Part shown: positions 2,200 to 63,645 of the stretch, one piece after another
Layout: every line of letters starts with the position of its first letter
Position numbering within the stretch: position 1 is the stretch's first letter
NCBI RefSeq assembly: GCF_032884065.1
Contig: NC_088863.1
Coordinates: forward strand, 41,572,880 to 41,636,879
Direction of reading: 5' to 3'
DNA length: 64,000 nt
From: Artemia franciscana
Lineage: Eukaryota > Arthropoda > Branchiopoda > Anostraca > Artemiidae
Translations under genes and position numbers: made by a program
The notes under the pieces: generated by a model
Databases searched by the model: none
What the model saw: the letters and a program-made list of their open reading frames with translations, nothing else
Told to the model about the DNA's origin: nothing

Positions 2200-2205
2200 T
2201 TTATT
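2200..2205 (-). promoter_or_regulatory. Candidate poly(A) signal of the RxRR-repeat secreted protein gene
   Basis: The - strand reads AATAAA here, about 66 bp downstream of the stop codon at 2271-2273, a normal position for a metazoan 3' UTR. Confidence 0.55.
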
Positions 2206-2270: not shown

Positions 2271-5240
2271 CTAATACGAAGGCTGGTATGGCTGTGGCTG
2301 GTATTGGGGTGGTTGATACGCAGGGGGCTGAGGCTGATACAAAGGAGGTTGGTATTGAGGGGGTTGTGGCTGATAAGGAGGCAACTCATAGGGGGATGGA
2401 TGTGACTGATACGAAGGTGGTTGATAAGGAGGCGGCTGTGGCTGATATATAGGTGGTTGATATGGAGGCGGCTGTGGTTGATACGAAGGTGGCTGGTATG
2501 GAGGTGATTGTGGCTGATATGGAGGTAATTGATAGGGGGGTGGTTGTGGTTGATACGAAGGTGGTTGATATGTAGGTGGCTGCGGCTGGTATGGCATCGG
2601 TGGATATGAGACTGGTGCATTTGATAATGGAGCTGCCATTGATAAGGGAGTCTCTAGGTTTACCTCCTTCGAAACTTCTGAAGATACTGTCGCAGGAGGT
2701 GTTGTCATCGGAATAAGATACATTAAAGGGGGTGACGCAACTGAATGAGCATGACTAGCCGCTGCAGAGGACTTGCTACCTCCTATTTTTATTGCCCACC
2801 GCCGGTGCCGTCCAAGTAGCTCAGTAGCGTTTGTGGCGCTAGTTTGTGTTGTTTCCAACATTGCAAATCGCTGAAGTCGACTATTAGACTCAGCAGGGTC
2901 CGTGGTGTTAGTATCTATTGTCTCTTCAGAAGTAAGTCTTCTTTGCCGACTCAAAAGCTCTGCGACTGCGGTCGCATTGGCTTGTGTTTTTTCTTGTGTC
3001 GATTGACTTGTGTCGATCACAGATCGACGCTCTAGACTAACATGCTCAAGAGGATCTGTGGTTTTAGTAGCCACTATTTCATCAACAGCCTTCATTAATG
3101 GTCGTTTTGGCAAAATAGTAGATTCAGTGATATCTGTAGTGCTGGTTCCAGCAGCATCCACCATTGCAAATTGTTGTTGCAGAAGATAAGGATCAGTAGG
3201 ATCAGTGCTGTTGGTATCTTTTGGATCATCAACAGAAAATCTTCTTTGTCGGTCTACAGTTGATGCGATATCTGTAGCGTTAGTCTCTGCTGTTTCTATC
3301 ACTGCAAATCTCCTTTGCCGACTAATAGGCTCGGCAGGATCCGTGACATTTGTATCTATTACTGTATCAGAAACTTCTCTTCTGTGCCGACTAGCGGGCT
3401 CAATTACGTCTGTTGCGTTGATTTTTTTCTCGTCCATCTTTGCGAATCGTCGGCGCCGACCAATAGGGTTAGTCAAATCTGTAACATTTTCATCTGTTGC
3501 TTCATCAATGGAAAGTCTTCCTTGCCGAATAGAAGGCTCGGTGATGTCAGTGGTGTTGGTTTCTACTGCTTCCATCATTGCAAGTCGCCGATGCCTAAAT
3601 ACAGACTCGGTAAGATCTGTGATGTTGGTATTTTCTGCATCATCAACAGAAAATCTTCTTTGTCGATCTACAGTCGACGCAATATCTGTAATGTTAGTTT
3701 CTAGTGTTTCCATTACTGAAAATCGCCTTTGCCGATGAACAGGCTCCGTAGGATCCGTGACATTGGTATCTATTACTTTATCAGCAGTAACTCTTCTTTG
3801 ACGACTAGCGGGCTCGTTGACGTCCGTCGCGTTTATTTCTGCCTCATCCATCTTTGCGAACCGTCGGCGCCGACCAATAGGGTCAGCAAAATCTGTGACA
3901 TTTTCATCTTTTACTTCATCAGTGGGAAGTCTTCTTTGCTGAACAGATAACTCGGTGATGTCAGTGATGTCTGTTCCTACTGCTTCCGTCATTGCAAGTC
4001 GCCGATGCCGAAACATAGGCTCAGTAGGATCTGTGATGTGGGTATCTTTCGCGTTATCAACAGGAAATCTTCTTTGTCGATCTACAGTCAGCGCGATATC
4101 TGAAATGTTAGTATCTGCTGTTTCCGTCACAGCGAATCGCCTTTGCCGACCAATAGGCTCGGTAGGACCTGTGACATTGGTATCTATTGTTGTGTCAGTA
4201 AAAGCTCTTCTTTGCCGACTAGGGGACTCGATAACACCCGTTGTGTTGATTTTTGCCTCATCCATCTTTGTAAGTCGTCGGTGCCGACCAATAGGGTCAA
4301 CCAAATCTGTGACATTTTCATGTTTTGCTTCATCAGTAAAAAGTCTTCTTTGACGAATAGAAGACTCGGTGATGTTGGTTTCTACTGCTTCCATCATTGC
4401 AAGTCGCCGATGTCGGAACACAGGTTCGTTAGGATCTGTAACGTTGGCATCCTTTGCGTCATCGACAGAAAATCGTTTTTGTCGATCTGAAGTCAACGCA
4501 ATATCTGTAATGTTAGTCTCTGCTGCTTCCATCACTGAAAAACGTCTTTCCCGACCAAGAGGCTCGGTAGGATTTGTGACATTGGTATCTATTACCGTAT
4601 CAGCAGCTACTCTTCTTTGACGACTTGTTGACATCCGTGGCTCGTTGAGGTCTGTCGCGTTGCTTTCTGCCTCATCCATCTCTGCAAATCGTCGGTGCAG
4701 AACAACAAGGTCAGCCAAATCAGTAGCATTTCCACCTTTTACTTCATCAATGGAAAGTCTTCTTTGCCGAACAGTTAGCTCGGTTGTGTTGATTTCTACT
4801 GCTTCTGTCGTCGTAAACCGTCGCTGCCGATGACTAAGCTCAGTAGAATCTGTGACTTCACTATCCATTTTACCATCAGCAGTATGTATTTCTTGTGGAT
4901 CAGCAGAACCAGTGTCGTCGGTAGCGTTATTTTCAGCAGCATCCACCATCAGAAGTCGCCTCTGTCGGACAATAATCTTCGCAGTATCTGTAGCATTCAA
5001 ATCAGCTGTATCCAGGGTAGAAAGCCTCCTTTGCCGTAAAATAGACTCAGTAGGGTTTTTAGTATTTTCATCAGAAAATTGGAGTCGCTGCTCCCGACTA
5101 ACAGGCTCAGTAGAGTCTGCCAAGTCAGTATCGGTATCTCCAGATATCGAATCCCTTTTTTGTAGACTAACGGGCTCTATGACATCTGTGACATTAGTTT
5201 CAGTAGCTTTCACAACATATGACACGGCGAGGAGCAATAT
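2271..5240 (-). CDS. Exon 2 of a large secreted precursor: tandem ~23-residue units ending in RxRR sites, with a Pro/Gln/Tyr-rich tail
   Basis: The exon starts after a pyrimidine-rich acceptor (TTTCTTTCAG on the - strand, AG at 5242-5241) in phase 0. It encodes 989 residues, TAG at 2271-2273. With exon 1 (10500-10517) the product is 995 residues starting MGINYLILLLAVSYVVKA, a convincing signal peptide with Val/Ala at -3/-1. After it come about 34 units, each usually 23 residues, with pattern F/L-x3-D/E-A-x-x-T-N-x-T-D-x-x-E-P-x-x-R-x-R-R. Most carry an N-x-T/S glycosylation sequon and most end in RQRR, RHRR or RRRR, the consensus of furin-like convertases. Six unit types recur in fixed order every 138 residues. 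The last unit is followed by an Ala/Ser/His linker and about 110 residues of YQPP and YQPQPPP repeats. Only one unit (RQGR) has a Gly next to the site, so amidated peptides are not expected. Inference: a precursor cut into acidic glycopeptides, or a structural secretion. No family recognised. Confidence 0.87.
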   Translation of the reverse strand: MLLLAVSYVVKATETNVTDVIEPVSLQKRDSISGDTDTDLADSTEPVSREQRLQFSDENTKNPTESILRQRRLSTLDTADLNATDTAKIIVRQRRLLMVDAAENNATDDTGSADPQEIHTADGKMDSEVTDSTELSHRQRRFTTTEAVEINTTELTVRQRRLSIDEVKGGNATDLADLVVLHRRFAEMDEAESNATDLNEPRMSTSRQRRVAADTVIDTNVTNPTEPLGRERRFSVMEAAETNITDIALTSDRQKRFSVDDAKDANVTDPNEPVFRHRRLAMMEAVETNITESSIRQRRLFTDEAKHENVTDLVDPIGRHRRLTKMDEAKINTTGVIESPSRQRRAFTDTTIDTNVTGPTEPIGRQRRFAVTETADTNISDIALTVDRQRRFPVDNAKDTHITDPTEPMFRHRRLAMTEAVGTDITDITELSVQQRRLPTDEVKDENVTDFADPIGRRRRFAKMDEAEINATDVNEPASRQRRVTADKVIDTNVTDPTEPVHRQRRFSVMETLETNITDIASTVDRQRRFSVDDAENTNITDLTESVFRHRRLAMMEAVETNTTDITEPSIRQGRLSIDEATDENVTDLTNPIGRRRRFAKMDEKKINATDVIEPASRHRREVSDTVIDTNVTDPAEPISRQRRFAVIETAETNATDIASTVDRQRRFSVDDPKDTNSTDPTDPYLLQQQFAMVDAAGTSTTDITESTILPKRPLMKAVDEIVATKTTDPLEHVSLERRSVIDTSQSTQEKTQANATAVAELLSRQRRLTSEETIDTNTTDPAESNSRLQRFAMLETTQTSATNATELLGRHRRWAIKIGGSKSSAAASHAHSVASPPLMYLIPMTTPPATVSSEVSKEVNLETPLSMAAPLSNAPVSYPPMPYQPQPPTYQPPSYQPQPPPYQLPPYQPQSPPYQPPSYQPQPPPYQPPIYQPQPPPYQPPSYQSHPSPYELPPYQPQPPQYQPPLYQPQPPAYQPPQYQPQPYQPSY
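2274..2640 (-). repeat. Coding repeat for the Pro/Gln/Tyr-rich C-terminal tail
   Basis: The - strand encodes repeats of Y-Q-P-P-x and Y-Q-P-Q-P-P-P with Tyr about every five to six residues and almost no other residue type. The DNA is a short-period repeat of CCACCA/TACCAG-type words. Such tails are common in secreted matrix, cuticle and egg-envelope proteins, where Tyr can be cross-linked; that role is inference here. Confidence 0.85.
2839..5200 (-). repeat. Coding tandem array: 69-bp units in a 414-bp six-unit higher-order repeat
   Basis: The unit is 23 codons (69 bp). Unit types A-F (for example A = F-A-K-M-D-E-A, D = F-S-V-D-D-A-K, E = L-A-M-M-E-A-V) follow each other in the same order about four times, with partial copies at both ends. 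A landmark (TTTGCGAA- or TTTGTAAG-CGTCGG) falls at 3439, 3853 and 4267, spacings of exactly 414 bp. Units toward the ends are more diverged and a few have lost the RxRR site or three residues. Confidence 0.9.
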
Positions 5241-5473
5241 CTGAAAGAAAATGTTAAATGAGGGTGCATGTTTTTTATACCGTTTTCACATGAAAATAAA
5301 GAGCACCGTGGAACTTGAAACAAACGGTTAATTATATCAGTGTGAGGGCAGCTTTGACTACCCACTATTTAGTCAGATAGCTATATGAATCATAAGGGCT
5401 CATTTAGGTGTATTGCTTTACACAATCAAATTTATAGTTCTAGGTTTTGAAAAGGAAAATGTAAGTAACACCT

Positions 5474-5608
5474 GCAATTTCCAGTTGACTATATTTGTTC
5501 TCAGCTAATGTCTCTAAATATAAACCTGAGCCGCCAAGCTGCTTCTTTGCTTTGAACACAATGCGGGCTATTTCCTTTGGTCGAAAATGGACGGGAACAA
5601 GAGCAACT
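5474..5608 (-). pseudogene. Short coding relic, probably ORF1-like from a retroelement
   Basis: The - strand is open for about 45 codons with normal-looking codon use. Words such as RPKEIARIVFKAKK and GSGLYL recall the C-terminal part of LINE ORF1-like proteins (basic helix, then G-S/T-G-I-Y-L). It ends near a GTGTTA that could be a weak donor. On the opposite strand the same stretch can be read as a terminal exon after TTCTCAG (5504), which I consider less likely. The assignment rests on a short pattern only. Confidence 0.3.
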
Positions 5609-7139
5609 TATGAGTTTTTGAGCATTTGAGCAACAATAAGTCGCTGAACGCTAAATATCTGAATTTAGAATATTAGTTGAACCCATTTTGACAAAAAAAT
5701 ATGTTTCTTGTGGCCTTAGCTAAACTTTGAAGACACTGTTAAATAGCACGGAGCTATTTTTCCCTTCCTGCTCCAAGTTGCCTTGTTGTTGCTACAGCTG
5801 ATAAATCTAGTTACCATGAATCGATACCACGCACCCAGTTTTGTTTTTTGATCAGTTCGAATTTTGGGATGAAACGGAACATTTACTGCATCATAGATTT
5901 CTGAGATAATGGGTTCAACTGGAAACGTAGCATGAATAAAGTTTTAAAGTTGCTCATTTTGTCTGCACTGTCATCCGTTTAATTTTTTTCTTAAATATAA
6001 GAGAAAAGAAAGTGAAAAGTGACATTTATAGCTTAAACAAACGTGAGTTATTTACAGTAAAGAAGGTTTCCACTCCCCCCTCCTCTTTGACCATTAGATG
6101 TTTATTTGTTAATTACCAGGAAGGATTCCACAATGTGTACATCTAGTAGTTGCAAATGTTGCAATTACTGATTACCTTTCAAACAGATTGGACTGAAAAT
6201 TTTGCTATTTAAAGTAGATACGGTCTTGAAAAAAGGCCAAACATTAGCACCGACATCAGGGGTTTAAAGGATGGTAGTACCCAATCTAAATATAATTTGT
6301 GCTCATTCATATTTTTAACATCGCTTTGTACTTTCATATGAATAACCCTGCTTGTCTTTAATAATTCTTGTTTAAAAAAAATAATAAGAGCTATCCCAAA
6401 CATGTTGGGGCTGTCGCTCCCCCATTGCAACTGTATACGCATACTATAGTTCCAATTTCTCAACCTTGTTCAATTTTACTACCAATGACTTGAAACATTC
6501 ATTCCAGGTAAAAATAACATAAAAAAATCACGCAAAAAAAAAAAAAAAACAGTGGCTGGCTGCTCTCGCAGCTGTTTGGTCTCCAGTCCCTTTTGACTTA
6601 TAAAAAAGGACTCGATTTTTTATCTAATGAGCACCTTCCAAAGTTTCTGCTACCATGAGGTTGAGGTGCAGATAAGAAAGGGCAGTCCCCCTCCTATACG
6701 GAGAAAATTCTGCTCGTTTTGAGCTTTAATGTTACTCTTTACTTTCACAATAACAGCGTGGACCAGAAATATTTCCAGAAATCATAAAGAAGCAGATATT
6801 AATTTTACGTTTTTGATGCGCTTTTAAAAGTTTCTTTTGTACCCCCCCCCCCCCAAACTAAAGTCCTGGTTGCAGTCCTGGGTATTATACATTAATTTCT
6901 ATTTTCACCCTCCCCTCGTCTCTCCCTTAGAACTAATTCTGTATTTATCTGATGACTCAATGAAAGCTGGGATGTTTTCGCATTAAAATGTGCCCTTTGA
7001 GGTATCTCCCTCCGTCCCAAACTAGAAAACAATCAGAGAACCCCATTGTAAAAGTTTAAGCGCCAAAGTTTTGTAATTTGTTCGTTACTTACACATAACA
7101 TTTATTATGGGAAAACATGAGGATGTTTTTGCGGGGGAG

Positions 7140-7445
7140 TTTTCTGCAGGGGGGGGGATGTCTCGGGAATTTTCAGTGAGGAGTAAATTTTTGGGAATTA
7201 TTTCCTTTCACTGAGGATGTATTTTCTGGGGAGATATTTTCCATGGGAGGGGCATTTTCCGCGGGTAGGGGGGTATTTTTCGCAGGGGGAGGCTATTTTC
7301 CACATGGGGGGGTATTTTCTTCAGAGGGCGGCTGTTTTCCGCAGGAGGCGGTTATTTTCCACAGGGGGCGGTTATTTTCCGCAGAGAAAGGTATTTTCCG
7401 GGGGAGGATTTTCCAGCAGGGTATTTTCCAGGAGGGGGGATAAAC
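7140..7445 (+). repeat. G-rich minisatellite, about 20-bp period
   Basis: Roughly a dozen degenerate copies of a word like GGGGGCGGTTATTTTCCGCA. The regularity produces overlapping open frames on both strands rich in Phe, Gly and Pro; these are by-products of the repeat, not genes. Confidence 0.8.
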
Positions 7446-10400
7446 GCCTAGAACCAAAAAACATCTTTCTTTAGAAAAATAGGTACTTATCGTATTTTTA
7501 GGTAGATACTTGAAACCTCTTTTCTCGAGTATATATTTTAATATAAATTTTCGTATTCTAAGAAATTTATAGGAAACCTTAAGCCATACTAACTTTGCAT
7601 CCACCATAAAAAATAATTTTATGCAAATATCGTTATCACAATTATGTTTTCAGTTGAGTTGGGGCAATTTCAATGATCACTCTTTACTTACTTGCCGTTC
7701 ATTTTCGTAAACAGTTAATAAGCCAAAAACTTTTGCGCACGGTAAATTACATGAAATGCTCTACGGTTAACATAAAAAAAGTACAAGATGATGAAGCAAC
7801 CTAAAATGGTTATGTCTCAAACAATGTATCATTTTTGTTGAATCCACAGAGCCCGGATGAATTGTTAACTATTGGAAGTTGAAACAATTTCAGAAACTAG
7901 AACATTAAAGTCATATTCATCTAAGTATTGAAAGAAAAGAAACATCAGAAATTTGCGTCTTTTATTTATTTTATTACAACTTTGATATTGACAATACAAA
8001 CAATTAAGTTGTAATATCCTATCGCTTTCTTCAAAAGTGATATAATCGACTTATTTTTAAGCGGAAAATCTGTTTCGGGCTGTCATAATATTTTATAATC
8101 AGCAGAAATATTGCTTAAATAGATGGATAGCTTTGTGAGGTTAGCTGCGTGAATGAACTAAGGGTGAGTTCCGAAAGCCAATTATAATTAGTGATAGTTT
8201 TTTTGTCAGTTATTAATTTCACTTCAAACCTGAGATAACAAAAAAAAATGTAACCTATTTTCTTCATGCTTTAAAACAACAGGAAAATTCATTATTTTAT
8301 GCTTTATTACCCTGAGCCTCCCTGGGCATGAAATTTTTAAAGCCTTGATAACCTAAACATATTTTAATGACTTGTGCCCCTTTCGAAATGTTTGCGGTGC
8401 ATCACAACATCGGCTAAATATTTATCTTCATAGTGTGACTGATAGAAATAAAAATCTTTCAACTAATTTTAAAAGAATATATCGTTACAATAAAGTTTTA
8501 CTAAATTACAGAAAGATAAAAAATCAACTAAACATGGATGAATAACATTTGTAAACTATAAATTGAAAATATTGCGTTAAAAAAACAAATCAAGAGAAAT
8601 CGCGTAGCAGTATGAAAATGATTAATTTAACTGTCAAAGAACTGATCTGATTAATCCACAAATCAAAACACAGAAAAATACACCTTTCTGGTTTCTGATC
8701 TAACATTCCCATAAACCCGTAGGAAGATGTCAGGATAATTTAGCGTTTGATTATCAAGTGCTTGTTTCAATACATTTCAATATGCTTTAGCTAAACTAGG
8801 TTTTGAATTACTTGGCATTCAATGGCTGATTTTTTAAACAGTTAAGTATGGAAATTTAAATTGTTAGAACTTACGAATTTGCTACCAAGGAACTAATTAA
8901 TTTAAATTGCTTTCTTTTAATTATTTGAAAAATAAAAATAATTTTCCTTCGGATGATGTTTCAAGGCTACAAAACCCATTTTGCCTAATTTCTATTCTTA
9001 TCAATTGGCTATTTATGCCAAAAAATATTGAAATTTTCAATGTAAATCCTTGCGTAGCTACAGCACTTTTGGGACGGGATTGAAATCCTTAGCTCAGATT
9101 CGACCAGTTTTTCCATCTTAAGCAAAAAAAAAATTTTTGTACGGGAAGCACTGATTTTGTCTCCTTTTTTCATCCAAGTGGTATACATATCAAATCAGTG
9201 GTCAAATAATGTTGAAAGAGCTCATTTGAGCGAAAATTTAGTTTTCTTTTTTTTAAGTAAAAAGAGATCATACCCCAGCAAAGGCGCGTTTTCTGGAAAT
9301 TTTATGCCACGAACGATCGATTATCGGCAAAATATACCGGTCAAGAGAATCAAAACGTTATGTGAAAAAAAAGTATTCCTAGGGTTAATTTTAGTTGTAC
9401 CGGAAACATCAGAGAACTTTTATGTGATTTCTATATCTTTTAATAATATATTCTAGATTACAGCCAGGGTTCATTGAGGTGATCAGGGGTATAATTCAGG
9501 CCTATTCCACTTTATGCAGAAGGAAAAATAAAATCTGTCCTTTTCAATCAAATATTGCCCATTTTTCATTTTTAAACATTTTCCATGACAGGGTCTATTC
9601 AGAGCCGTTCATCGTGGGGAGGGGCAAAGAGGGCAGCTGCCCCAGGCACCTTGACTAGAGGGGGAGGCTGTGTTTGGGGATTTGGCCACTTTGATCAAAT
9701 TTTTCACTTTGTTTCAGCTTTTTTCATTATATTTGAGTCAGGAGGAGGCGCCACAATTAATTTTTCCCTAGCACTACCGACCCTAGGAACGGTTCTGGTC
9801 CTAGCGCTTTCATCCCTCTAGGATAAGCCTAGACACGAGATTTTTCATAGATAGAATAAAAAATTTAAAATTTTAAATACTCATTAAAAGCAGCGTGGTT
9901 CCCTCACCTGAAGTAGTCCGGAGTGAACGCCTAACCATACTAAAGACTCGCATACCCACATAAGAAAATAAGATAAAATAACAGTTAAGCTAGGCTAGAC
10001 TGTCGTGAGCTGATTCAATCCAAGTGAGTACACATGTAATATTAAAGGGGGGGGGGGATCCAAAATTTTTGAAAGGAATATGTAAATTAGACACTAGTAA
10101 AATTGCAAGCGATATGATCGATTGCTCAAAATCCTGTAGATTTAAAAGACAAAATTGATTCAAAAACCCAATACATACAAAAACCTTTTTGATCCTCTAT
10201 TTTTTTTATTATCTTTATGATTATTAATAACGTTTAAGTATAGAATCAAAGCAAATGTTTTTTGTTTTTTTTCAAGGGTCGGCGACTATCACTTGAATTT
10301 TGCTAAGAGTTACAAGCAAAATAAAATGAGAATTGATTGCAGCATTAGAAATTACTCAGCTACATATTAAGATAAAGAAATTACGGTTTGACTGATTATA

Positions 10401-10499
10401 CCTGAGACTATCAGTACCTTTCTATGATTAATATACTATTCAAAGATAATTTTTTTCAAACAGACAGTAATAGGAGCTCAATACAAATTCAACACATAC

Positions 10500-10517
10500 C
10501 AGATAGTTTATCCCCAT
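10500..10517 (-). CDS. Exon 1 (coding part) of the RxRR-repeat secreted precursor
   Basis: Six codons, M-G-I-N-Y-L, then the donor GTATGT. The ATG lies in ATAACCATGGGG, a strong initiation context. Joined in phase 0 to exon 2 (ATATTGCTCCTCGCC) it gives MGINYLILLLAVSYVVKA, which has a signal-peptide core and cleavage site that exon 2 alone lacks. A TATA box and an initiator-like TCAG lie just upstream at suitable spacing. It is too short to appear as an open reading frame and was found by looking for a phase-0 donor preceded by ATG and hydrophobic codons. Confidence 0.75.
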
Positions 10518-10560: not shown

Positions 10561-10595
10561 ATTCTGAAACATAACTTGAAGAAGCATATATACCC
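10561..10595 (-). promoter_or_regulatory. Core promoter of the RxRR-repeat protein gene: TATA box and initiator
   Basis: On the - strand GGGTATATATGC places TATATAT at 10592-10586. An initiator-like TTTCAGAATA follows with its A at 10565, about 27 bp downstream. A start there gives a 5' UTR of about 48 nt before the ATG at 10517. Confidence 0.55.
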
Positions 10596-33200: not shown

Positions 33201-35686
33201 CCCTTTGATGGCTGAATTATGGAATTATGATAAAAGAAAATATTTTGCTTTTTTCTGGCTTAGTAGGGGTCTGTGACAAGGTTTAAAAGAAGAAGTATCA
33301 TTTATTTCACATGGAATATGACTCTTTTAAGGCAAATCAGCTAAATAACAAAACTGTCCACTCAAGCATTTGAGTTGTATGTTTTGAAACAGTTCTTGCC
33401 TTTAGCGAGGCAAAGGTGCATGTTGCACTTGAGACACTTGACAAAAGTGTAGGCATATTTTGCACAGAACTTGCATCTCTGTCTTTCGTCGACTATTTCG
33501 GGCCAGTGGGCCAAGCTATCATAGCAAACACTAGAACTAGGAACGCTGTTTCTCCACATTTTCTTCTGGGGTCGGGAAGTAACGGGAGACTCACTTGGCG
33601 GTCTTTCTCTTCTCATTGCAGGCACAGTTGCACCTCTCAGCAGTCTGTGATGTCAGCACGAAAGCAAACTTGCGGTAGAGACTTCTCGGCATCACTATGA
33701 TGATTGCACCTATACAGCAACCAGGCATTTGCCACACTCAAGTCCAAAAGTAGTAGATCAGACACATGTACCCCTTCTTCCCCTTGATATCGGTGCGATA
33801 TACCTCGATCAGCATGTCACTTAAGTCAACCCCACCCATAAACTTGTTATATTAATAAACGACATGAGGTCTATTCACGTCGATTTGAGCCTGACTCTTT
33901 TTGTCCCATCGTTTGCACTGATCAGTGGGGTCAGGCCCAGTATATGATGAAATGAGATGAACAGGCTTGTTGTCGTACCACTTCGTCACGACAATGCTAG
34001 AATGTTGCTCGACTCACCAATCAACCGACCCCCTTCCCGCCTTTTCCATTTTTTGGTCTGCTTCCAGAGGGGGAGTTTCGCTTTCCGCATTCGTTCTATT
34101 CTCAATGTGCCAACTGACTCAATTCCCATTTGCTTAAGATTTTCAACGAGATGAAAGCTGCTGTAAAAACTGTCAAAGAAAATGTTGAATTTTAGGTTCT
34201 TAGAAAGATGTTCAACCAGATGTAGCACCATTTCTGCACCGAAATCAAGATTAGACCTGATGTTGGCTCCTTTTCCACTATAGACTTCGAAATCATACAC
34301 TATATTACTAGTTCCAGCTCTTGTAAATATTTTTATCCCCCAATTTTGGGGCTTGTCTTTCATATATTGTTTGAAGCCGAGGCAGCCTCTGAATTGGACC
34401 ATTTGCTCATCTATGGACTGACGTTCTTCGTTTGAGATTTCTCGCATATTCCCCCACAGCCTGTCATACAAGGGTCACACCTTGAAGAGGGGATCGTATC
34501 CTACGTTCCCCTTCCTGACTGCCTTGGAGAATAGCGTGTAGCTGTTTCCCAGTACATCGACATATGTGGCAGCTTCACGATGCCCATAAGCAGAAGAATT
34601 CTGAGGAACTGTTCCATCTCTTTAAATGTGCATTTCAGCTCCAAGCCTTTTTGTTGTAAGGCATATCGGTTTGTCTCTTCTACAAGACTGCTTATCATGA
34701 CCGAGTCGAAAAACTTCTGGAAGAAGACAATTGAAGTCACCAACGAAGAGTCGGGACTTGGAATGTGTTCTTTCCGACTGATGTCCTTCTCGTGTACTGG
34801 AGCTTTCTTCCAGATTTGCCTCTGGTCTGCCAAAGAGTTTGGTGTTAGGTCTGCCTCAGTTTCATCTTTAAGTACTTACGCGGACTTCATGTGGGACTTG
34901 GCTATTCGAATGAGTGGTAGATCATATTCGTCGTCGCTGTCTTCGCAATGACCGTCATGTCCTTCTTCAGCTGGTTCAAAAAGAGGGTCACTTTCATCCT
35001 CAGACTCCTCCAAATCTAGGTCAGATAGTTCGCCGTCTGGCTCCAGGACATACGACACTGCACTGCTAAGGTCTATTCGTCCTAGTTGTCCTTCATGCCT
35101 TCTCCTCAGCGCTTCTTGCAGACTTTGTTCAGTCCTTTCTACTGCCTCCTCGACTAATAAAGAGGTTGAGGGTTCAGTTTCTGAAAAAGAACCAAGTGTT
35201 ACAGTAACAAAAATAAAAGAAAGTAGAAACACAAATTAAGTTCTCACTGAGACGTATCTATAATATACGGGACTTTCAGAAAATTCCTCTGCACTACCTC
35301 CCCTGTGGCGAGTGAGTCTTACAAGACTCTAGACAAAAAGCATGTATGAAGATACAAGAGTGAAAAAATGTGATGAAAAACAAAACAGGCCTAAGCTTTT
35401 AACACTAACGAACGTCAAAATATTTTTTTCCCTCACCATCCAACAAAAACTTCCACTCCACCTGAGTTCGATTTATTTCATTTCTCGAAATGAAGAAATT
35501 TCCACTTCGTCGACTTCAGTCCTGTGCAAAAGATGTTCGAAAACTCAATAGGGGAAAAAATACACCATTCGATAGCTGTCTTTGCTTAGATACCGAATAT
35601 CTACAGACTGTCATTTTGACAAATCAGAAACGAGCATTTGTCCAAAATCATGGTGAGTCCTATAAGAGTTACCAGCCATCAAAGGG
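33201..35686 (-). mobile_element. piggyBac-family transposon, full length but decayed
   Basis: TTAA duplications at 33197-33200 and 35687-35690 flank exact 14-bp inverted ends, CCCTTTGATGGCTG (33201-33214) and CAGCCATCAAAGGG (35673-35686). The 2486 bp between hold a - strand transposase in several broken pieces. Intact ends with a broken transposase mean this copy cannot move itself but could be mobilised in trans. It lies about 250 bp downstream of the LAGE3/Pcc1 exon, probably in that gene's intron or 3' flank. Confidence 0.93.
33362..35232 (-). pseudogene. piggyBac transposase pseudogene
   Basis: N-terminal piece (35232-34876): an acidic region (LSDLDLEESEDESD). A same-frame stop at 34876-34878 separates it from 34833-34501, which has the FKEMEQFLRILLLMGIVKLP block typical of the family. 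A frameshift near 34.49 kb leads to 34471-33986 with IDEQMVQF, KPQNWGIKIF and FDSFYSS. A further shift gives, around 33.80-33.98 kb, KWYDNKPVHL, then a stop, then FMGGVDLSDMLIEVYRT. The C-terminal Cys-rich finger (CKFCAKYAY..CLKCNMHLC) is at 33362-33625. All three catalytic Asp motifs of the DDD transposase (DEQM, FD, VDLSD) are still visible despite at least two stops and several shifts. Confidence 0.9.
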
Positions 35687-51435: not shown

Positions 51436-53358
51436 CAGACGTTCGAAGTAATCGAGCAGAGAAGGCAAGCAAGACTACGAGGAGATATGACATTCTACAG
51501 ACAGTGCAACTTTATGCTACGCAAGGACAAGAAAGACTTCATTGAAAGCAAATCCACCGAGATCGAGCAAGCTGCCCAAAAGAAAGACATAGGTGTCACA
51601 TTCAAGATCTTGCGTTATCTGACAGGCCAACACACCATGGAGTCCACAAACCTGAAAGCAGCGAATGGAGAAACCATTAACGAGCAGTTCCAATGTCTTG
51701 GTCTATGGAAGAAACACTTCGAAATACTGCTCAACTCAGATCCACCCAATTGCATTGGCCTAGGTCTTGTTGCTGCTGCTGCAGTGGTTGCCACTGCCCC
51801 TGACTGTGACGAATTTTCTCCTGAGGAGATCAGATCGGCTGTAAGGAAACTTAAGAACAATAAAGCAGCCGGCACTTGTGGCATCACGTCTGAGCTAATC
51901 ACAACAGGCGGGCCTGCAACAACACTTTGGCTGCAGAGGGTGTTCAGCATAATCTGGCACTGAAGTTATACCATCAGATTGGAAGAAAGGGATCCTTGTG
52001 CCAGTGTTTAAGCGCAAGGGCAGAAAGACAAACCATTGCAACTACTGCGGTATCACCCTACTGTCTGTTCCTGGAAAGCTGTTTGCGATTCTACTACTCA
52101 AACGGGCAACAAGTTTCTTACATGTTTTGCGCCACCCCCGACAACCCGGATTCATGCCAGGAAGATCGACAATTGAGCAGATTCACACGGTTAGACAGGT
52201 CGTTGAGAAGACAATAGTATTCAACAAAAAAACCTACATAGCTTTCATTTACTTTCGTTCTGCCTTTGACATTGTTGACAGACCGTCCCTTTGGCTAATC
52301 CTGAAAGCTGTGAGCTTTCAGGATTATTTCAGGATAACCCGTAAACATAGTCAGCCTATTAAAAGAACTTCACAGCAGCACAGAAAGTGCCGTCCTGTTT
52401 AATAAGAAGCCTTTTCTTCCTTCTCCATACAAAACGGAGTATGACAAGGATGCGCTGCTGCACCTGAGCTATTTAACGTCGTCATCGACCACATCCTGAA
52501 CGAGAGGCAGCATGCCCACAATTTCGGTATCAGTTATACCAAGAGGACTCTATCCGATATTGCCTTCACGGAAGTTGTAGCCGTGCTTAGTGATAATCTC
52601 GACCAACTTAAGTCTGCACTCGAGACACTCTCCTCCACAGCCTCTAGAGCTGGGCTGCAGATCAACTGGAAGAAAACTAAGATCATGCCCATAGAAAAGA
52701 CTGCATCAGCACCACTCTCAACTTTTGAGATTAATGACCAGGCTGTCGTTGTGGTAAGGCAGTTTTCACACCTCGAATAAATTATATCCTCAAGTGGCAC
52801 ACTTGACGCCGAAATCTCAGCCAGATCAGCCAAAGCAAGCTTTGTGTTTGGACGACTCCTGAGAGCAGTCTTCCACAAACCACAAATTTGCCGCCATATC
52901 AAAGCCCAAATTTACAACGCCACAGTCTTAAGTATCATGCTCTACTCATCTGAAGCATGAGCGATAGCCCCGACACAGCTAAGAAGGTTCGATGCTGTTC
53001 AGGCTAGACACCTGCGTCGAGTCGAAGGCAGATCTTGAAAAGATCTGCAATACTGAGATCCTGAAGACCTTCAAGCTGGCGAGCCTCTCTCCCCAAGTAC
53101 GGCCACCTACTCCGTCTCTCGCTAAGTACCCCCGCAAGGATCATCCCGGACTTCAATCCCTCGGAAAATGGCTGGAAACACCCTCGAGGAAGGCCACGCA
53201 CTAGACGGGCTGATGTAATAAGCCAACGCCTGCTCAATCACATCATCAACCCAAATGACACCCCATCCTTAGCCCTGGACAGGGCTACATGGAGAAGACT
53301 GTCGGCGTTGTCAACCAGTTCCCTCCACGCTAGTAACCCTGCTGAGAAGGAACGATAA
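51427..53358 (+). mobile_element. Decayed non-LTR retrotransposon reverse transcriptase (second family)
   Basis: 51427-51963 encodes the linker (ADLKAA-type region, EEIRSAVRKLKNNKAAGTCG) up to RT motif 1. 51998-52402 encodes VPVFKRKGRKTNHCNYCGIT, LSVPGKLFAILLL, QPGFMPGRSTIEQIH and YIAFIYFRSAFDIVDRPSLW. About 52440-52780 encodes CAAAPELFNVVIDHIL and AGLQINWKKTKIM; the catalytic F-A-D-D is degraded (FTEV). After a stop, 52800-53350 encodes the C-terminal LR.VEG, LGHLLR-type and ALDRATWRRL blocks. Multiple stops and shifts. The sequence style (GITLLSVPGK, PGRSTI, INWKKTKIM) differs from the 44.9 kb element, so two LINE lineages are present. Confidence 0.85.
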
Positions 53359-55025: not shown

Positions 55026-58000
55026 CGTATTGATTTTCCACGTCGTGAAACTTGTGCATTGATTTTTCTCCTCGTGAAACTGATTTTATTCATGGAGCAT
55101 GTTATATGTTTATTTTTCTCTTCGTGAAACTTGTACATTGACTTTCTCTCCTCGTAAACGGATTTTGTTCGTGGAGTTTGTTGTCCGCTTATTTTTGTTT
55201 GTAAAACTTTTGTATGTTGATTTTTCTCTTTGCGAAACTTATTGCAAGTTGATTTCTTTCCTTTGTTAAATTTGTACATTGCTTTTTCTCCTCGTGAAAC
55301 CAATTTTGTTCTTGGAACTTGTTTTGTGCTGATTTCTGTTCGAAGAACTTGTTTCGTGCTGATTTTTTATTCGTGAAACTTGTTGCATGTTGATTTTTCT
55401 GTACGTGAAAATGGTATAATGATTTTTTCTCCTCTTGAAACTGATTTCGTTCATGGAACATGTTACGCTCGGATTGTTGGTCGTGGAGCTTGTTGTGTAA
55501 TGGCTGTTGTTCGTGAATTTTATTGCATGTCAATTTTTCTCTTCGTGAAACTATATTGCTTTTTCTCCTCGTGAAAATGATTTTGCTCATAGAATTTGTT
55601 GCGTGCTTATTTTTCTTTGTGGAACATGTTAAGTACTGATTTTTATCGTGAATTATGTCGCATGTTGATTTTTCTCTTCGTGAAAATCGTATACTGAGTT
55701 TTTCTCCTCGTGAAACTGATTTTGTTCATTGGACTTGTTGCGTGCTAATTTTTGTTCGTGGAATTTGTTTTGATTTCATTTTTGTTCACGAAACTTGTTG
55801 CACGTGGATTTTTCTGTCCGTAAGAATTGTACATAGATTTTTCACCTCTTAAAACTGAATTTGCTCATAGAACATGTTGCGTGCTGATTGTTGTTCATGG
55901 AGTTTGTTGCTGCTGATTTTTGTTCATGAATTTTGTTGCATGCTGGTTTTTCTCTTCGTGAAACTTTTACATTAATTCTTTGGTCCTAGTAAAACTGATT
56001 TTAGTCCGCGAAACTTGTGTCATTTTGACTTTTCTCTCGGCAAAACTTGTATATTGATTTTTACAATCGTGAAACTGATTTTGATAATGGAACTTGTCAG
56101 GTGCTGATTTATGTTCTTGGAACTTGTTGTGCACCCATTGTTGCATGCTGATTTTTCTTTTCGCGAAACTTGTATATTGATTTATCTTCTCGTGAAGATG
56201 ATTTTGTTCATGAAAATCATTACGTGCTGATATTTTTCTGTGGAACTTGTTGCTTGTTGGTTTTCGTGAAACTCGTACATTATTTTCTCTCCTTGTTAAA
56301 CTGATTTTGTTCATGGAATTTGTTGCGTGTTGATTTTTTGTTCGTGGACCTTATTGCAGTTTGATTTTTCATTTTGTGAATGTGCTACATTGATTTTTTC
56401 TCCTCGTGAAACTGATTTTGTTATTGAAACTTGTTGCTTGTTGATTTTATGCAGGGAACTTGCTGCTGCTGATTTTTGTTCATGAAACTTGTTGAAGCTT
56501 GATTTTTCTCTTCATGAATCTTATAAAATGACTTTTCTCCTCGTGAAACTGATTGTGTTCATTGAACTTGTTGCTTGCTGATTTTTCTTTTTGAAACATA
56601 TTTACTGCTTTTTTTTATTTTTAATTTTGTTGCATTTTGATTTTTCTCTTCGTGAAAATCACACAGTCAGTTTTTCTCCTCGTGAAACTTATTTTATTCA
56701 TGGAACTCGTTGTTTGCTCGTAAAACTTGTGCATTGATTTTTCTCTTCGAGAACGATCTTTTTCATGGAACCTGTTGCGTGCTGATTTTTGTTCGTAGAA
56801 TTTGTTTCGTGCTGATTTTTTTCGCAAAACCTGTTGTATGTTGATTTTTCTGTGCGAAAAAATTGTATATACATTTTTCTCCTCTTGAAACTGATTTCGT
56901 TCATGGAACTTACTGCGTGCTGATTGTTGTTCGTGGAGTTTTTTGCTGCTGGTTTTTGTTCGTGAGTTTTGTTGCATGTTGATTTTTCTCTTCCTGAATC
57001 TTGTACATTAATTTTTTTGTCCTCGTAAAACTGATTTCTGTTCGCGAAACTTGTTGCATGTTGATTTTTCTCTTCGGAAAACTTGTATATTGATTTTTCC
57101 CCTCGTGAAACTGATTTTGTTAATGGAACTTGTCACATGCTTTTTGTTCGTGGAACTTCTTGCGCGCTGATTGTTGCATATTGATTTTTCTCTTCGTGAA
57201 ACTTCCAAATCGATTTTTCTCCTGGTGAGACTGATTTGATTTATGGAATTCATTGCGTGTTGATAATTTTTCGCGGAAGTTGTTGTTATTTTTTTTCTCC
57301 TTGTGAAACTGATTTTGTTCGTGGAACTTGTTGCGTGCCGATTTGTTTTCAGAATTTGCTCGGTGCTCATCTTTCATTCGCTAAACTTGTTGCATGTTGA
57401 TTTTTTTTATTTTGTGCATGTTTTACATTGACTTTTTACTCCTCGTGAAACTTATTTTGTTCATAAAATTTTTTGCGTGCTGACAAACCATCTACACGTT
57501 GATTTTTCTCTTTTTGGAACTTTTAAATTGATTTTTTTTCCCTCCTGAAACTGATTTTATTTTTGTAATTTGTTCAGAGCTGATTTTTGTTCGCGGACCC
57601 TGATGGGTGCTGATTTTTTTTTATAAACTTGTTACATGTTGATTTTTTCTTCGTGAAACTTGTAAATTGATTTGTTTCTTCTGATGAAACTAATTTTGTT
57701 CACGGAACTCTTTAAATGTCAATTTTGCTCATAGAACATGCTGCGTTTCCATTTTTTCATGAGACTTGTTATATATTGATTTTCCATTTAGTGAATGTTG
57801 TATATTTATTTTTTCTCCTCGTGAAACTGATTTTGTTAGTAAAACTTATTGTGTGCAGATTTTTGTTTGTAAAACTTGCTTCGTGCTGATTTTTGTGCGT
57901 GAAACTCATTATATGTTGATTTTTCTCTTCACGAAACTTGTGCATTGATTATTTCTCCTGGTGACACTGATTTTAATCAGGGAACTTGTTGAGTGTAGAT

Positions 58001-60685
58001 TTTTGTTCGTGGAACCTATTCTATGTTGATCTTTATTTCATGAAACTTGTTACATGTTGATTTTTCTCTTCGTGAAACTTGTACGTTGATTTTCTCTTCT
58101 TGTGAAACTGATTCTACTTATGAAACTTGTTGAATGTTTATTTTGTTCATGGGACTTTTTCCGTGCTACTTTTTGCTGGTGAAACATGTTTTGTGCTGAT
58201 TTTTGTACGCTAAACTTGCTGCATGTTAATTTTTCTTTCCGTTAAACTTGTACATTTATTTTTCTCCTCTTGAAACTTCTTTCATTCATGGAGCTTGTTG
58301 CTAGGTGACTGTGTTCTTGGAACTTATTGCGCGCTGATTTTTGTTGTTTGAACTTTCTTGCATGTTGATTTTTCTCTCCTTGAAACTTGTAAACTGATTT
58401 TTTCTCCTAGTGAAACTGATTTTGTTCATGTAACTTTTTCTGCGCTGATTTTTGTTTGTAGAACTTGTTGCATGTTGATTTTTGTTCGCAAAACTTATTA
58501 CATGTTGACTTTTCTCTTCGGGAAACTTGTAATTTGATTTTTCTCATCATGAAATTGATTTTGTACATGGAGCTGGTTGCGTGCTGATTTATGCTCTTGG
58601 AACTTATTTGGGCTGATTTTTGTTCGTGCAGCTTATTGCAAGAGGTTTTTTTCTCGTCGTGAAACTTGTATATTGACTTTTTCCCTTGTAATACTGATTT
58701 TTTTTCATGAAACTTATTGCGTGCTGATTTTTGTTCGTGAAACTTGTTGCAAGTTGATCTTTCTCTTTGTATAACACGTACATTGATTTTTCTCCTCGTG
58801 AAACTGATTTCATTTCTGGAACTTGTTATGTGCTGTTTTGTTGTTCATTGAAATTGCTGTCTGCTGATTTTTGTTTTTGAAACTTGTTGCATGTTTATTT
58901 CTAATTTCGTGAAATTTTGACATTAATTTTTTTCTTCTCGTGAAACTGATTTGCTCATTAAACTTATTAAGTGCTAATTTTTATTCGTACAACTTGATGA
59001 ATGCTGATTTCTGTCCGTGAAACGTATTGTATATTGATTTTTCTTTTCGCGGAACTTGTGCATTAATTTTTCTCCTCGTGAAACTGATTTTGTTCATGGG
59101 ACTTGTAGTGGTTAGGTCAGCTTTGGGGGACTCTACAAAGTGTGGTGAGACCTACACCTAACCCTTATATGGTAGGTAATATTAAGTTAGATTGATAATC
59201 GTAAAGCTGATTTTGTTCATGGAGCTCATTGCGTGGTGATATTTTTTCGTGGAACTTGTTGCTTGTTGATTATTTTCTTCGTGAAACTCGTACATTGATT
59301 TTCCCTTCGTGAAATTGATTTTGTTCATGGAACTTTTTGCGTGATGACTTTTGTTAGTGGAACTTGTTGGGTGCTGATTTTCGTTCATAAAACTTGTTGC
59401 ATCTTGATTTGTCTTTTCATGAAACTTAGACATTGATTTTTCTCCTTGTTAACTGATTTTTTTTCATGGAACTTATATGTTGAATTTTCTCTTCGTGAAA
59501 CTTGTACATTGGTTTCATCTCATGTGAAATTAATTTTTTCACGGAACTTGTTTTGTGCTAACTTTTATTCGTTGAAGTTGCTGCGTGTTATTTTTGTTCG
59601 TAAAATGAACAAAATTCCTCCTCGTGAAACTGATTTTATTCAAAGAGCTTGTTGCATACGGATTTTTGTTCGTGAAACTTGTTGCATCTTGATTTTTTTT
59701 CTTTGTGATATTTTTACTTTGATTTTTCTGCTTGGGAAACTGATTTTGTTTGTGAAACTTGATGTCTGCTGATTTTTTGTTTGCGGAACTTGTTGCATGT
59801 TTATTTTTGATCTTGAAACTTGTTGCATCATGATTTTTCTTCTTGAAACTTGTATAATTATTTTTCCCCTCGTGAAACTGATTTTGTTGATGGAACTTGT
59901 TGCGTGATGACTTTTGTTCATGAAACTTGATGGATGCTGATTTTCGTTCATAAGCTTATTGCATCGTGATTTTTCTTTTCGTGAAACTTCTATTATTTTT
60001 TGATTTTTCTGATTTTCTGATTTTATTGATTTTTCTGTTCATTAAACTGATTTTCTTATGGAACTTGTTGTTAGTTGATATTGTTTATGGAACTTATTGC
60101 GTGCTGTTTTTTGTTCATGAAACTTGTTACATGTAGATTTTTCTATTCGTGAAACTTGTACATTGGTTTTACCCAATTTGAAATGGATCTTGTTCATGGA
60201 ACTTATTTCGTGCTGACTCTTAATCGTTGAACTTGCTGCATGCTGATTTTTGTTCGTGAAACGAACAAAAGTCCTCCTCGTGAAACCGATTTTATTCATG
60301 GAGCTTTTTCCATTCTGATTTTTGTTCGTGGAACTAGTTGCATCTTGATTTTTCTCTTTGTTAAATTTTTACTTTAATTTTTCTGGTTGTGAAACTGATT
60401 TTGTTTTTGAAACTCGATGCCTGCGGATTTTTTGTTGGCAGAACTTGTTGCATGATTGTTTTTTTTCTTGAAACTTGTGACATCATGATTTTTCTCTTCT
60501 TGAAACTTTTATATTGATTTTTCTCCTTGTGAAACTGATTTTGTTTATGGAACTGGTTGCGTGCTGAGTTTTGTTCGGGAAACACGATGCGTGCTGATTT
60601 CTGTTCGTGAAACTTGTTGCATGTTGATTTTTCTTTTATACTGAACAAATTTTTTCTTAAACTGATTGTTTCTCGTTAAACTGAA
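55026..60685 (-). repeat. Degenerate minisatellite array, part 1
   Basis: On the - strand a core of about 22-32 bp, CAAGTTYCACGAACAAAAATCAG, is repeated in variants: CAAGTTCCATGAACAAAATCAG, TTTCACGAGGAGAAAAATCAATGTA and CAAGTTTCACGAAGAGAAAAATCAACATGCAA. Four or five variants often follow in the same order, giving a loose higher-order unit of roughly 110-140 bp. The - strand frames of up to 133 codons (KFHEQNQFHEEK-like, VSRREKSTCNKF-like) are regular because of the repeat, yet no frame stays open across the array. Confidence 0.92.
59105..59200. repeat. Unrelated insertion of about 95 bp inside the minisatellite
   Basis: The repeat is interrupted by a sequence with no CAAGTTYC core. It contains GGTTAGGT (59110-59117) and its inverse ACCTAACC (59156-59163). 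Confidence 0.65.
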
Positions 60686-60705
60686 GAAATGCAGTTTAAC
60701 GAGAA
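60670..60705. repeat. Palindrome at the orientation switch of the minisatellite
   Basis: TTCTCGTTAAACTG (60670-60683), loop AAGAAATG, then the exact inverse CAGTTTAACGAGAA (60692-60705). Repeat units left of it read on the - strand; units right of it read on the + strand. Confidence 0.9.
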
Positions 60706-62175
60706 GAAAAATCAATGTACAAATTTCGCGAAAAGGAAAATCAATATACAACAAATTTTAATACAAAAATCAGCAAGCAAAAAGCTCCACGAGCAAAAAT
60801 TCACGCGACAAGTTCCATGAACAAAATCAGTATCACAAGGAATAAAATTAAGGTACAATTTTTACAAAGAAAAAATTAACATGCAACAAGTTTCAAGTTT
60901 CATTAACAAAATTCAGCAAGCAGCAAGTCCCTCGAATAAAAATCAGTACGCAACAAGTTCCTTGAACAAAATAAGAATGCAACAAGCTCCATTAGCAAAA
61001 TCAGTTATACGAGGACAAAAATCAATGGACAAGTTTCATGAGGAGAAGATTAAGAGGCAACAAGTTTCACGAGCAAAAATCAGCAAGCAGCATGTTCCTT
61101 GAATAAAATAATTTTCACGAGGAGAAAAATAAAGTACAAGTTTCTAGAACAAAAATCAGCAAGCAGCTAGTTCCACGAACGAAAATCAGCACGCAGCAAG
61201 TTTCTTGGACTAAATTGGAGCGCAACCACTTCCACGAACAAAAATCAACACGCAACAAGTACCATGAACAGAATCAGTTTCACTAGGAGAGAAAAACTGT
61301 GCACAATTGTCATGAAGATAAAAATCAAGATGCAACACGTTTCAAGAACGAAATTCAGCATGCAACAAGTTCCGCAAACAAAAAATTAGCATGCAACAAG
61401 TTACATGAACAAAATTAATTCCATGAGGAGAAAATAAAAGTACAAGTTTCACAAAAAGAAAAAGGAAGATAAAACAAGTTTCACGAACAAAAATCAGCAC
61501 GCTACATGTTTCGTGATCAAAATCAGCTTGACGAGAAGAAAATCAAGTTACAAGTTTTACAAAGAGAAAAACCAGCATGCAACCAGATCCACGAGCAAAA
61601 AATCAGCACGAAACAAGTTCCATGAATAAAATATTTTTCACGAGGAGAAAAATGAAGTACAAGTTTCAAGAACAAAAATCAGCAAGCAGCTAATTCCACG
61701 AACGAAAATCAGTACGATAAAAGTTTCTTAAACAAAATCGGCACGCAGCCACTTCCACGAACAAAAATCCACGTGAAACAAGTTCCTTGAACAAGATCAG
61801 TTTCACAAGGATAGAAAATCTGTGTACAATTTTCATGAAGATAAAAATTAAGATGCAATAAACTTCAGGAACAAAAATAAGCATGCAACAAGTTCCATGA
61901 ACAAAATCAATTTCACGAGGAGAAAAATCAAAGTACAAGTTTCGCAAAAAGAAAAAACAAGATAAAACAAGTTTTACGAACAAAAATCAGCATGCGAAAA
62001 TTCCCACGATCAAAAACCAGCACGCTACAAGTTTCCTGGTCAGAATCAGTTTCACGAGGAGAAAATCAATGTACAAGTTTCACGAAGAGAAAAAATCAAC
62101 ATGTAGCAAGTTTCACGAACAAAAACTCAGCACGCAATAAATTTCATAAACAAAGATCAGCACGCGACAAGTTTA
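60692..62175 (+). repeat. Degenerate minisatellite array, part 2 (inverted)
   Basis: Same unit family as 55.03-60.69 kb but now reading CAAGTTYCACGAACAAAAATCAG on the + strand. A segment of roughly 500 bp (about 61120-61480) and one at about 61640-61980 share the same order of variants (AGCAAGCAGCTAGTTCC..., CGCAACCACTTCC...), suggesting a larger duplication. Ends near 62175. Confidence 0.9.
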
Positions 62176-63645
62176 AATAAAAACAATGGTCATTTTTAGC
62201 TTATAAATTTATTTTTGAGGGGAAAAGCTTGAAAATCCCCAGGTGTGATAATATGCACCAGAAGGTTGTCATTGTGGTGGGCTAGGGGGTTGTTGGGCTG
62301 ATACATTGTGCCACGCTAGTTTCAATGCTAGAAGTCATCGGAAGAAACAATAATGGGGATTATTTTCATTAAGTTTAAGGGGTCGATTCTAGTATAAACA
62401 AATATTTTTGCACTAAAATGCTCGGAAAAATGTAACATGAATGATAATGCACGCTACAGGGTGTTTTATTTTAGCCATTGAGATTCACGGGTTTGAAATT
62501 GCCATGGAACATCGCAATCTATCAATGAAATGGCAAGTTATCCCTGTTCAAATAAAAATAATGATGGCTTTTTAATTTATAAATATATTTTGAGGGTAAA
62601 AGCTCGAGAAACCCTCAGGGGTGATAGTATGCACAAGGATTGTTTCATCGGGTTGGGGAGGCTGTTACATTGTGCCTCGCTGGTGTCAATTGCTAGGAGT
62701 CATCAGAGGAAACGCTAATGGGGATTTTTCATTAAATCTAAACGATCAGCTCTTGTGGAAACGAATATTTTTGCATAATAATGCCCTAAAAATGTCATAA
62801 GAAAAGAATGCTAGCAGCAGCCTGCAATATTGTTGGATGATTCTCGCGAATGCAATACTCAACAAACAGGTATACTTTAAATGTAAGTAAATTTTAGTAG
62901 TCGATTTTCCACCCTACATGTCAGTTATTGCAATCGTATGGGAGGACGATATTCATTTAATGATTCTACTATGCGAGACAGAGATTTTCCGTGCGTTGAC
63001 TAGGCTATCATATAGAATGTATTAACCGAATAAAAATATTAAAAAGGGTGTCATGGTCCAGATGTCCAAGGCACAGTTCCATTGGACAGAAATGACCCTT
63101 TCGAATCCTAATGGTGAATGGTGCCATAATAAGTATGGTGTTATTGGGGGATGGCTGTTACATTGTGTCAAGCTGGTGTCAATTGCTAGGATTCATCAGA
63201 AGAAACACTAATGGGAATTTTCCCTTAAGTCTAAACGATCGATTCTTGTGTAAACGAATATTGTTGCATAATAATGCCCAAACAATGTCTTATAAATGAT
63301 AAAGACCCTATTAGTAAAATAAGCGGTAACAGTAACCCACAATATTACCGAATAATACTCTCTAATACATTACTCAGCAAGCAGGTATACTTTAAATGTG
63401 AGCAAATTTCAGTAGTCGATTTTCCACCCTGCATGTCAGCTATTGCAATCATACGGTAACACGCAGGACATTTAATTATTCTACTATGCGAGACAGGGAT
63501 TTCTCCGTGCGTTGACTAGAGTATCATGAAGAAGTATTAAGCTAATCAAATACTAGAAAGGGCAAAGGGCTTCATGGTCCAAATGTCCGAGGCACAGTTC
63601 CATTGGATGGAAATGACCTTTTCGAATCCAATGCGGACATAAAAC
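62176..63645 (+). repeat. Tandem repeat, unit about 0.5 kb, nearly three copies
   Basis: Copies at about 62190-62470 (partial), 62545-63120 and 63121-63645. Shared words include TGTTACATTGTGCC, TGGTGTCAATTGCTAGGA, TCTAAACGATC, GCATAATAATGCCC, CAGGTATACTTTAAATGT, AGTAGTCGATTTTCCACCCT, CTACTATGCGAGACAG and GAGGCACAGTTCCATTGGA. No coding content supported. Confidence 0.85.

Follow-up and report, generated by a model that had tools for sequence, protein, structure and literature searches.

What is the role of an array of 35 short units, most with a potential glycan acceptor and a furin-type site, placed ahead of a Tyr/Pro/Gln-rich tail in a single secreted protein? The question is raised by a gene on the minus strand (10517..2271) of a stretch of 64,000 nucleotides (nt) of the Artemia franciscana genome (contig C1:41572880-41636879), the whole of which we call the window and in which positions are counted. 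Our answer, which we hold at slightly less than an even chance, is that the gene encodes a convertase-processed precursor of an extracellular-matrix protein, in which a propeptide was multiplied into 35 units and the core and tail that follow are the product. Locus labels (C1, C9, C11, C14 and so on) denote contigs of the genome searched (1,270,528,402 bases, 6468 contigs).

Gene structure and the unit array

The gene consists of two exons (10517..10500 joined to 5240..2271) with a product of 995 amino acids (aa), and the coordinates, the 5240/10500 junction and the length given earlier by a reading of the DNA letters (the sequence-only reading) were all recovered. All features of the gene lie on the minus strand. 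The coding part of exon 1 (10500..10517) comprises six codons, MGINYL, directly followed by the donor GTATGT. A phase-0 intron (5241..10499, GTATGT...CAG) interrupts the signal peptide, and exon 2 (2271..5240) encodes residues 7-995 and the stop codon in a frame that is open throughout. A TATATA box (10587..10592) stands 75 nt upstream of the ATG, and an AATAAA polyadenylation signal (2200..2205) follows 68 nt past the start of the stop codon. The protein contains no cysteine and runs, in order, through a signal peptide, 35 units, a core of 59 residues and a Tyr/Pro/Gln tail of 116 residues. The remainder of the signal peptide, residues 7-18 (5205..5240), was called by eye, with a guessed cleavage point. 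It is followed by the acidic unit array (residues 19-820, 2799..5204), the core (residues 821-879, 2622..2798; W..K.GG.KSSAA...), which is common to a paralog on C14, and the tail (residues 880-995, 2274..2621), made of 36-nt repeats that encode YQPP/YQPQPPP. The intron also holds a G-rich minisatellite with a 20-nt unit, at 7235-7436.

The protein was cut into units by a hand-set segmentation in which unit 1 includes the signal peptide. The repeat array described by the sequence-only reading is real; its estimate of about 34 units of about 23 residues became 35 units by this segmentation, 26 of them exactly 23 aa long. All units lie within one open frame and no intron falls in the repeat region. 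A strict R-x-[RK]-R site ended 25 of the 35 units, as had been said of most units, and the looser R-x-x-R ended 28; an N-x-S/T sequon was present in 28, fewer than the "almost all" first claimed. When the residues of the 802-aa body were shuffled 2000 times, RX[RK]R occurred 1.4 times on average (maximum 7) and sequons 7.5 times (maximum 16). The description of the protein as a predicted secreted precursor with furin-type sites and sequons is supported. With the strict sites removed, the array has a net charge of -111 over 702 residues, and single units range from -1 to -6 apart from unit 1 (with the signal peptide), which has 0. Complete cutting at the strict sites would give 26 pieces, of which 16 are 23 aa long, the C-terminal one 175 aa and the others 20 to 101 aa.

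Conservation between units

Unit-to-unit comparisons took in the 26 units of exactly 23 aa and left out the 9 units of other lengths. Mean DNA identity was 0.51 between units one apart, 0.75 between units six apart and 0.73 between units twelve apart, and Tandem Repeats Finder reported a 414-nt period in the array, which is a higher-order period of six units. When every pair among the 26 units was compared, the proportion of nonsynonymous differences (pN) was lowest (0.06 to 0.23) in columns 10 (N), 12 (T), 13 (D) and 20, 22 and 23 (three Arg). The Arg at P4, P2 and P1 of the cleavage site had pN of 0.18, 0.23 and 0.06, respectively, against 0.33 in column 21 (P3), and all other columns lay between 0.38 and 0.63. 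The five-column set N, T, R, R, R had the fourth lowest pN among 33,649 sets.

The ratio of pN to the synonymous proportion (pS), taken over all pairs with a bootstrap of units and close to saturation in its values, was 0.15 (0.05-0.29) for N and T and 0.24 (0.09-0.38) for the P4/P2/P1 Arg, compared with 1.04 (0.87-1.28) for positions 1-8 and 1.02 (0.85-1.26) for positions 14-19. Between units six apart, the ratio of nonsynonymous to synonymous substitution rates (dN/dS) was 0.34 for the sequon (columns 10-12), 0.25 for the three Arg, 0.84 for positions 1-8, 0.54 for positions 13-18 and 0.56 for the whole unit. The contrast between sequon and Arg on one side and the remaining text on the other thus persists at this distance, though weaker, and the text outside them is also somewhat constrained, partly through D13. 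Since unit pairs are not independent, we read this conservation as a pattern and not as a formal test.

Neutral drift was simulated from the unit consensus (1000 runs of 26 units) at 0.23 substitutions per site, half the divergence implied by the pS of 0.345 between units six apart. RxRR sites remained in a mean of 8.1 of the 26 units (maximum 16; observed 19) and sequons in 12.1 (maximum 19; observed 22). Every run produced at least one unit with a stop, while none of the 26 observed units has one.

Signal peptide, copy number and basic sites together also suit a precursor of many bioactive peptides, either neuropeptides or antimicrobial peptides. Gly stands directly before 6 of the 25 strict sites, which corrects the earlier statement that almost no unit has one, and positions 13-18 retain some constraint between units six apart. 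However, the peptide text between the basic sites, whose conservation would mark a neuropeptide precursor, has an all-pair pN/pS close to 1 once N, T, D and Arg are set aside. Such poor retention across units argues against a multi-copy hormone, and the earlier view that amidated neuropeptides are unlikely is upheld. Four of the six Gly sites contain an internal Q, H or E, which would block simple carboxypeptidase trimming to Gly, and the remaining two read GRRRR. The negative net charge of the units is also unlike that of cationic antimicrobials. We regard a bioactive-peptide precursor as quite improbable. Because the units are poorly kept as peptides, the dozens of acidic glycopeptides proposed by the sequence-only reading need not be the functional product; the acidity and the furin-type sites stand, and the cleavage is a prediction.

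One-unit relatives in the genome

The genome search scores only the best candidates, so family counts are lower bounds. The window protein matched one further locus, C14:34149478 (the paralog C14a; expectation value, E, 1.8e-6); with a core as query the match had E 5.0e-8. C14a encodes one NST sequon, one RDRR, a W..K..GG.KSSAA... core, a PPQQY tail and an acidic end. The cores of the two proteins align with a score of 123, compared with 54 for the best of 5000 shuffles. The predicted first exon of C14a, the best-scoring among 14 candidates listed by a donor scan, has six codons (MILVKL) followed by GTAAGT and would place a phase-0 intron within the signal peptide at the same codon as in the window gene. 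On this sequence evidence the window gene and C14a belong firmly to one family. The MILVKL and GTAAGT frame occurs twice upstream of C14a, 3.2 kb apart and each time below a TATATA; the duplicated predicted promoter and first exon lie at 4017-4448 and 7211-7639 of locus L015 (C14 ~34142.5k and ~34145.7k) and are 77-88% identical by segment.

The C14a core also matched C9:37445448 (E 0.03) and C14:25499226 (C14b; E 3.5). Both are open frames in which a signal peptide is followed by VNST or INST, by REPR or RQTR and by a similar core, with a Q/Y/P/M tail before the acidic end. A fifth match to this core, a frame on C8 (E 4.8), was dropped as it resembled by eye a retroelement endonuclease frame. 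The C14b gene, used as a genome query, found C9 and two places on C11 (C11:37737891 and C11:37641498; L045/L047 and L046/L048). These two one-unit copies lie ~96 kb apart and are near-identical by eye, and both shift frame near a T-run, through either decay or sequencing (homopolymer) error. A local tblastn of the fetched loci with three family cores, which covered 180 kb of C14 flank among others and left out the flanks of the window on C1, showed no additional clear member among its 30 best rows. We tentatively count C9, C14b and the two C11 loci as family members on their sequences, which makes six loci in total. The array is present only in the window gene, and the other five have the one-unit layout. 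The acidic C-terminus of the short members is absent from the window gene, where the array may, as a conjecture, take its place.

Between C9 and C14b, dN/dS was 0.27 overall, 0.36 in the signal peptide plus propeptide, 0.09 in the core (49 codons), 0.20 in the tail and 0.56 at the C-terminus, so both behave as constrained genes. The unit of the one-unit relatives occupies the place of a propeptide, after the signal peptide, ending in RxxR and before the core; the array of the window gene therefore looks like a roughly 35-fold expansion of a propeptide. The one-unit layout together with the low dN/dS of the core suggests core plus tail as the conserved product. This agrees with the earlier proposal that the Tyr/Pro/Gln tail would be released as a separate piece, the predicted piece being the 175-residue core plus tail.

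The relatives also bear on whether there is a working gene at all. A chance open reading frame (ORF) or a decayed repeat would fit the failure of word-based protein database searches to return a homolog. However, exon 2 is open throughout, with no stop in 26 diverged units, the relatives C9 and C14b are under purifying selection, and the predicted intron position is shared with C14a. We give this explanation hardly any credence.

In another explanation the units themselves are the product, as in fish hyosophorins: a tandem glycopolyprotein would be cut into N-glycopeptides that serve as bulk glycan (hydration, barrier or buoyancy), with the tail only as an anchor. Hyosophorins are described as a glycopeptide repeated in tandem and rich in carbohydrate (PMC3528131), and the cortical-alveolus glycoproteins of fish as cut into small units (PMC9630641). 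These precedents share with the window protein a tandem series of short units that carry glycans and cutting to small pieces, both predicted in our case, and the sequon and RxRR rank with the best-kept columns of the array, as this explanation would have it. In contrast to the hyosophorin repeats, which are identical peptides in fish eggs, the window units diverge from one another, end in RxRR and precede a tail. The one-unit relatives keep core and tail with a single unit, which means that what the family conserves is not the unit. We consider units as product unlikely; the resemblance to hyosophorins would be one of function, with no sequence relation claimed.

Proposed processing

We return to the reading of the gene as a matrix precursor with an expanded propeptide. 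In its basic form the family would encode a signal peptide, one short sequon-bearing propeptide, an RxxR convertase site and then the product, made up of a short basic/hydrophobic core and a tail rich in Gln, Pro and Tyr. Tandem duplication would have enlarged the propeptide of the window gene to 35 units, starting from the one-unit form. As the protein is secreted, a furin-like convertase would act at many units and release the 175-residue core plus tail (from Trp821; about 19 kDa by residue count), along with spacers that would be acidic and N-glycosylated. These spacers may hold the Tyr-rich piece soluble until secretion and may also contribute glycan to the secreted material, in which Tyr and Gln side chains would be cross-linked. 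The genome contains exons for a furin-like P-domain at C21 (E 1.6e-22) and C14 (E 5.4e-22 against furin chains, as for C21), and a third, weaker, on C7.

A further step, which is possible and which we favor less, is that a disposable glycosylated propeptide, rather than a product, was amplified about 35-fold in a lineage-restricted secreted family. Selection would then mostly act to keep the glycan acceptor and the convertase site, each matrix protein would be made with its own load of glycan and charge, and this would be a new way to build a tandem polyprotein.

Several observations weigh against the expanded-propeptide reading. The strict site is absent from 10 of the 35 units and the sequon from 7, and neutral drift at 0.115 substitutions per site covers the observed counts of sites, sequons and stops (maxima 23 sites and 24 sequons). 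The window gene is connected with the C9/C14b/C11 group indirectly, through C14a, and C9 and C14b were reached from the C14a core only at the weak scores given above. The genome search with C14b did not recover C14a or the window gene, and in a small local scan the window core reached the fetched locus L037 only at E 3.6. The RxxR sites are one column out of register in the four-way family alignment. The signal peptides of C9 and C14b begin within the same open frame, so the intron of the window gene is absent there. Finally, the R-x-[RK]-R sites and the P-domain exons are features expected of a furin substrate, but the residue after the predicted cut (P1') is F at 11 of the 25 strict sites and L at 9, together 20 of 25, with V at 2 and A, E and W at 1 each. 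As F, L or V stands at 22 of 25, cleavage may be partial; aliphatic P1' residues are poor for furin.

The P1' residues, along with the units that lack a strict site, would be expected if the sites were mostly left uncut. The protein would then be a giant polyampholyte of mucin-like kind, with patches of RxRR between acidic glycosylated stretches, and pairing of the opposite charges would turn it into a gel. However, the Arg at P4, P2 and P1 are better kept than the residue at P3, and the spacing of the sites matches the convertase consensus, for which charge alone would give no need. The one-unit relatives also retain one RxxR between sequon and core. An uncut polyampholyte seems to us a rather doubtful explanation, about on a level with units as product.

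Destination and closest known systems

If the precursor is processed as proposed, the cyst shell, as a product of the shell gland, is our single best guess for its destination, a fair guess and not a result. The chorion of the Artemia cyst shell is described as secreted by shell-gland cells, and the shell-gland genes SGEG1 and SGEG2 as having no apparent homology with known proteins; SGEG2 is presumed to yield two matrix peptides by a cut at RYKR (PMC3108945). The window protein resembles them as a predicted secreted Artemia protein without apparent homologs and, in the case of SGEG2, in the presumed basic cut. It differs in size, the SGEG1, 2a and 2b bands being reported at 14, 16 and 17 kDa and SGEG2 at 20 + 255 residues versus 995, and the SGEG2 epitopes printed there were not found in the window protein by eye (PMC3108945). 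The SGEG protein of A. franciscana is reported to be 84.4% identical to that of A. parthenogenetica (PMC9009394). Two further points count against our reading here: because of these differences SGEG1 and SGEG2 give no direct tie of the window gene to the shell, and a 32-aa composite of the SGEG2 epitopes had no match in the genome search, an empty result that does not show absence and that a query this short may explain.

Tyr-rich chorion proteins are described as substrates of oxidative cross-linking in insects (PMC13409908). The Tyr/Pro-rich composition of these proteins is like that of the window tail and would suit such cross-linking, a likeness of composition only; an array of convertase units is not mentioned in the part of that description consulted (PMC13409908). 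A single-nucleus atlas of the female reproductive system of Artemia contains none of the terms "shell gland", "chorion", "furin" and "SGEG" in its main text (PMC11392275).

By architecture, the window gene may be regarded as a variant of the already known class of tandemly repetitive polyproteins, with a likeness of function to hyosophorins. Among this class, the units of nematode polyprotein allergens (NPA) measure about 130 residues. Its members, NPA/ABA-1 and filaggrins, are described as having repeated units, regularly spaced basic furin-like motifs and very small or no introns (PMC3079579). With these the window protein shares a large precursor, similar repeated units, regular basic motifs and a repeat region free of introns. 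In contrast, NPA units are folded lipid-binding domains of solved structure (PMC3079579), whereas the window units are 23 residues with sequons and are followed by a Tyr/Pro/Gln tail. No NPA/ABA-1 domain was found in the window protein by Pfam (no family above cut-off) or NCBIfam (no match).

Database and literature searches

The window protein gave nothing above cut-off against Pfam and NCBIfam and no match among phage records, and the array, the only part compared with PDB sequences, gave nothing above cut-off there (best E 0.61). The protein database search can detect a relative only through exact 5-residue words in common; the window protein had no match at E <= 0.001 among the 7992 candidates sharing most words that were scored, and the first 90 residues of C14a had none at E <= 1 among 82 candidates. 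C14a without its predicted first exon gave 117 matches at E <= 0.001, which, judged by the table and without recourse to alignments, we attributed to the Q/P/Y tail and set aside; most rows lacked a BLAST overlap, and PF00036, PF00168, PF03803 and PF11737 were frequent Pfam families among them. Literature searches on Artemia shell gland, chorion and proteomics, furin, neuropeptide and polyprotein listed no paper that describes such a protein, and one on furin-cut, glycosylated tandem repeats of eggshells gave no paper, with most subscription journals outside the search. The remark of the sequence-only reading that no described family has such a layout agrees with Pfam, NCBIfam, the PDB sequences and the protein database as searched. 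In the searches made, the gene family appears only in the A. franciscana genome.

Tandemly repetitive polyproteins have been called rare in nature and their adaptive value mysterious (PMC3079579), and RNA interference has been used in Artemia (PMC3108945, PMC3428274). With one-unit and 35-unit forms in one genome of an animal amenable to it, the contribution of repetition is directly testable. If the product reaches the cyst shell, it would bear on an exceptionally resistant animal egg coat.

Other features of the window and genome

Two adjacent ORFs on the minus strand of the window (33989-34474 and 34504-34875) matched DDE_Tnp_1_7 (PF13843), which we take to be a PiggyBac-type transposase, and two ORFs on the plus strand (51953-52777) matched the reverse transcriptase family RVT_1. 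A degenerate minisatellite of ~7 kb (55043-62181) has periods of 30 nt and ~139 nt, with a complementary unit from ~60.9 kb, and the long minus-strand ORFs within it are probably repeat artefacts. Genome-wide, 75 COX1 matches were found at E <= 0.001, many of them long and on chromosome-size contigs (e.g., C4, C12, C8 and C10), and these are apparently abundant mitochondrial insertions, or assembly mixing.

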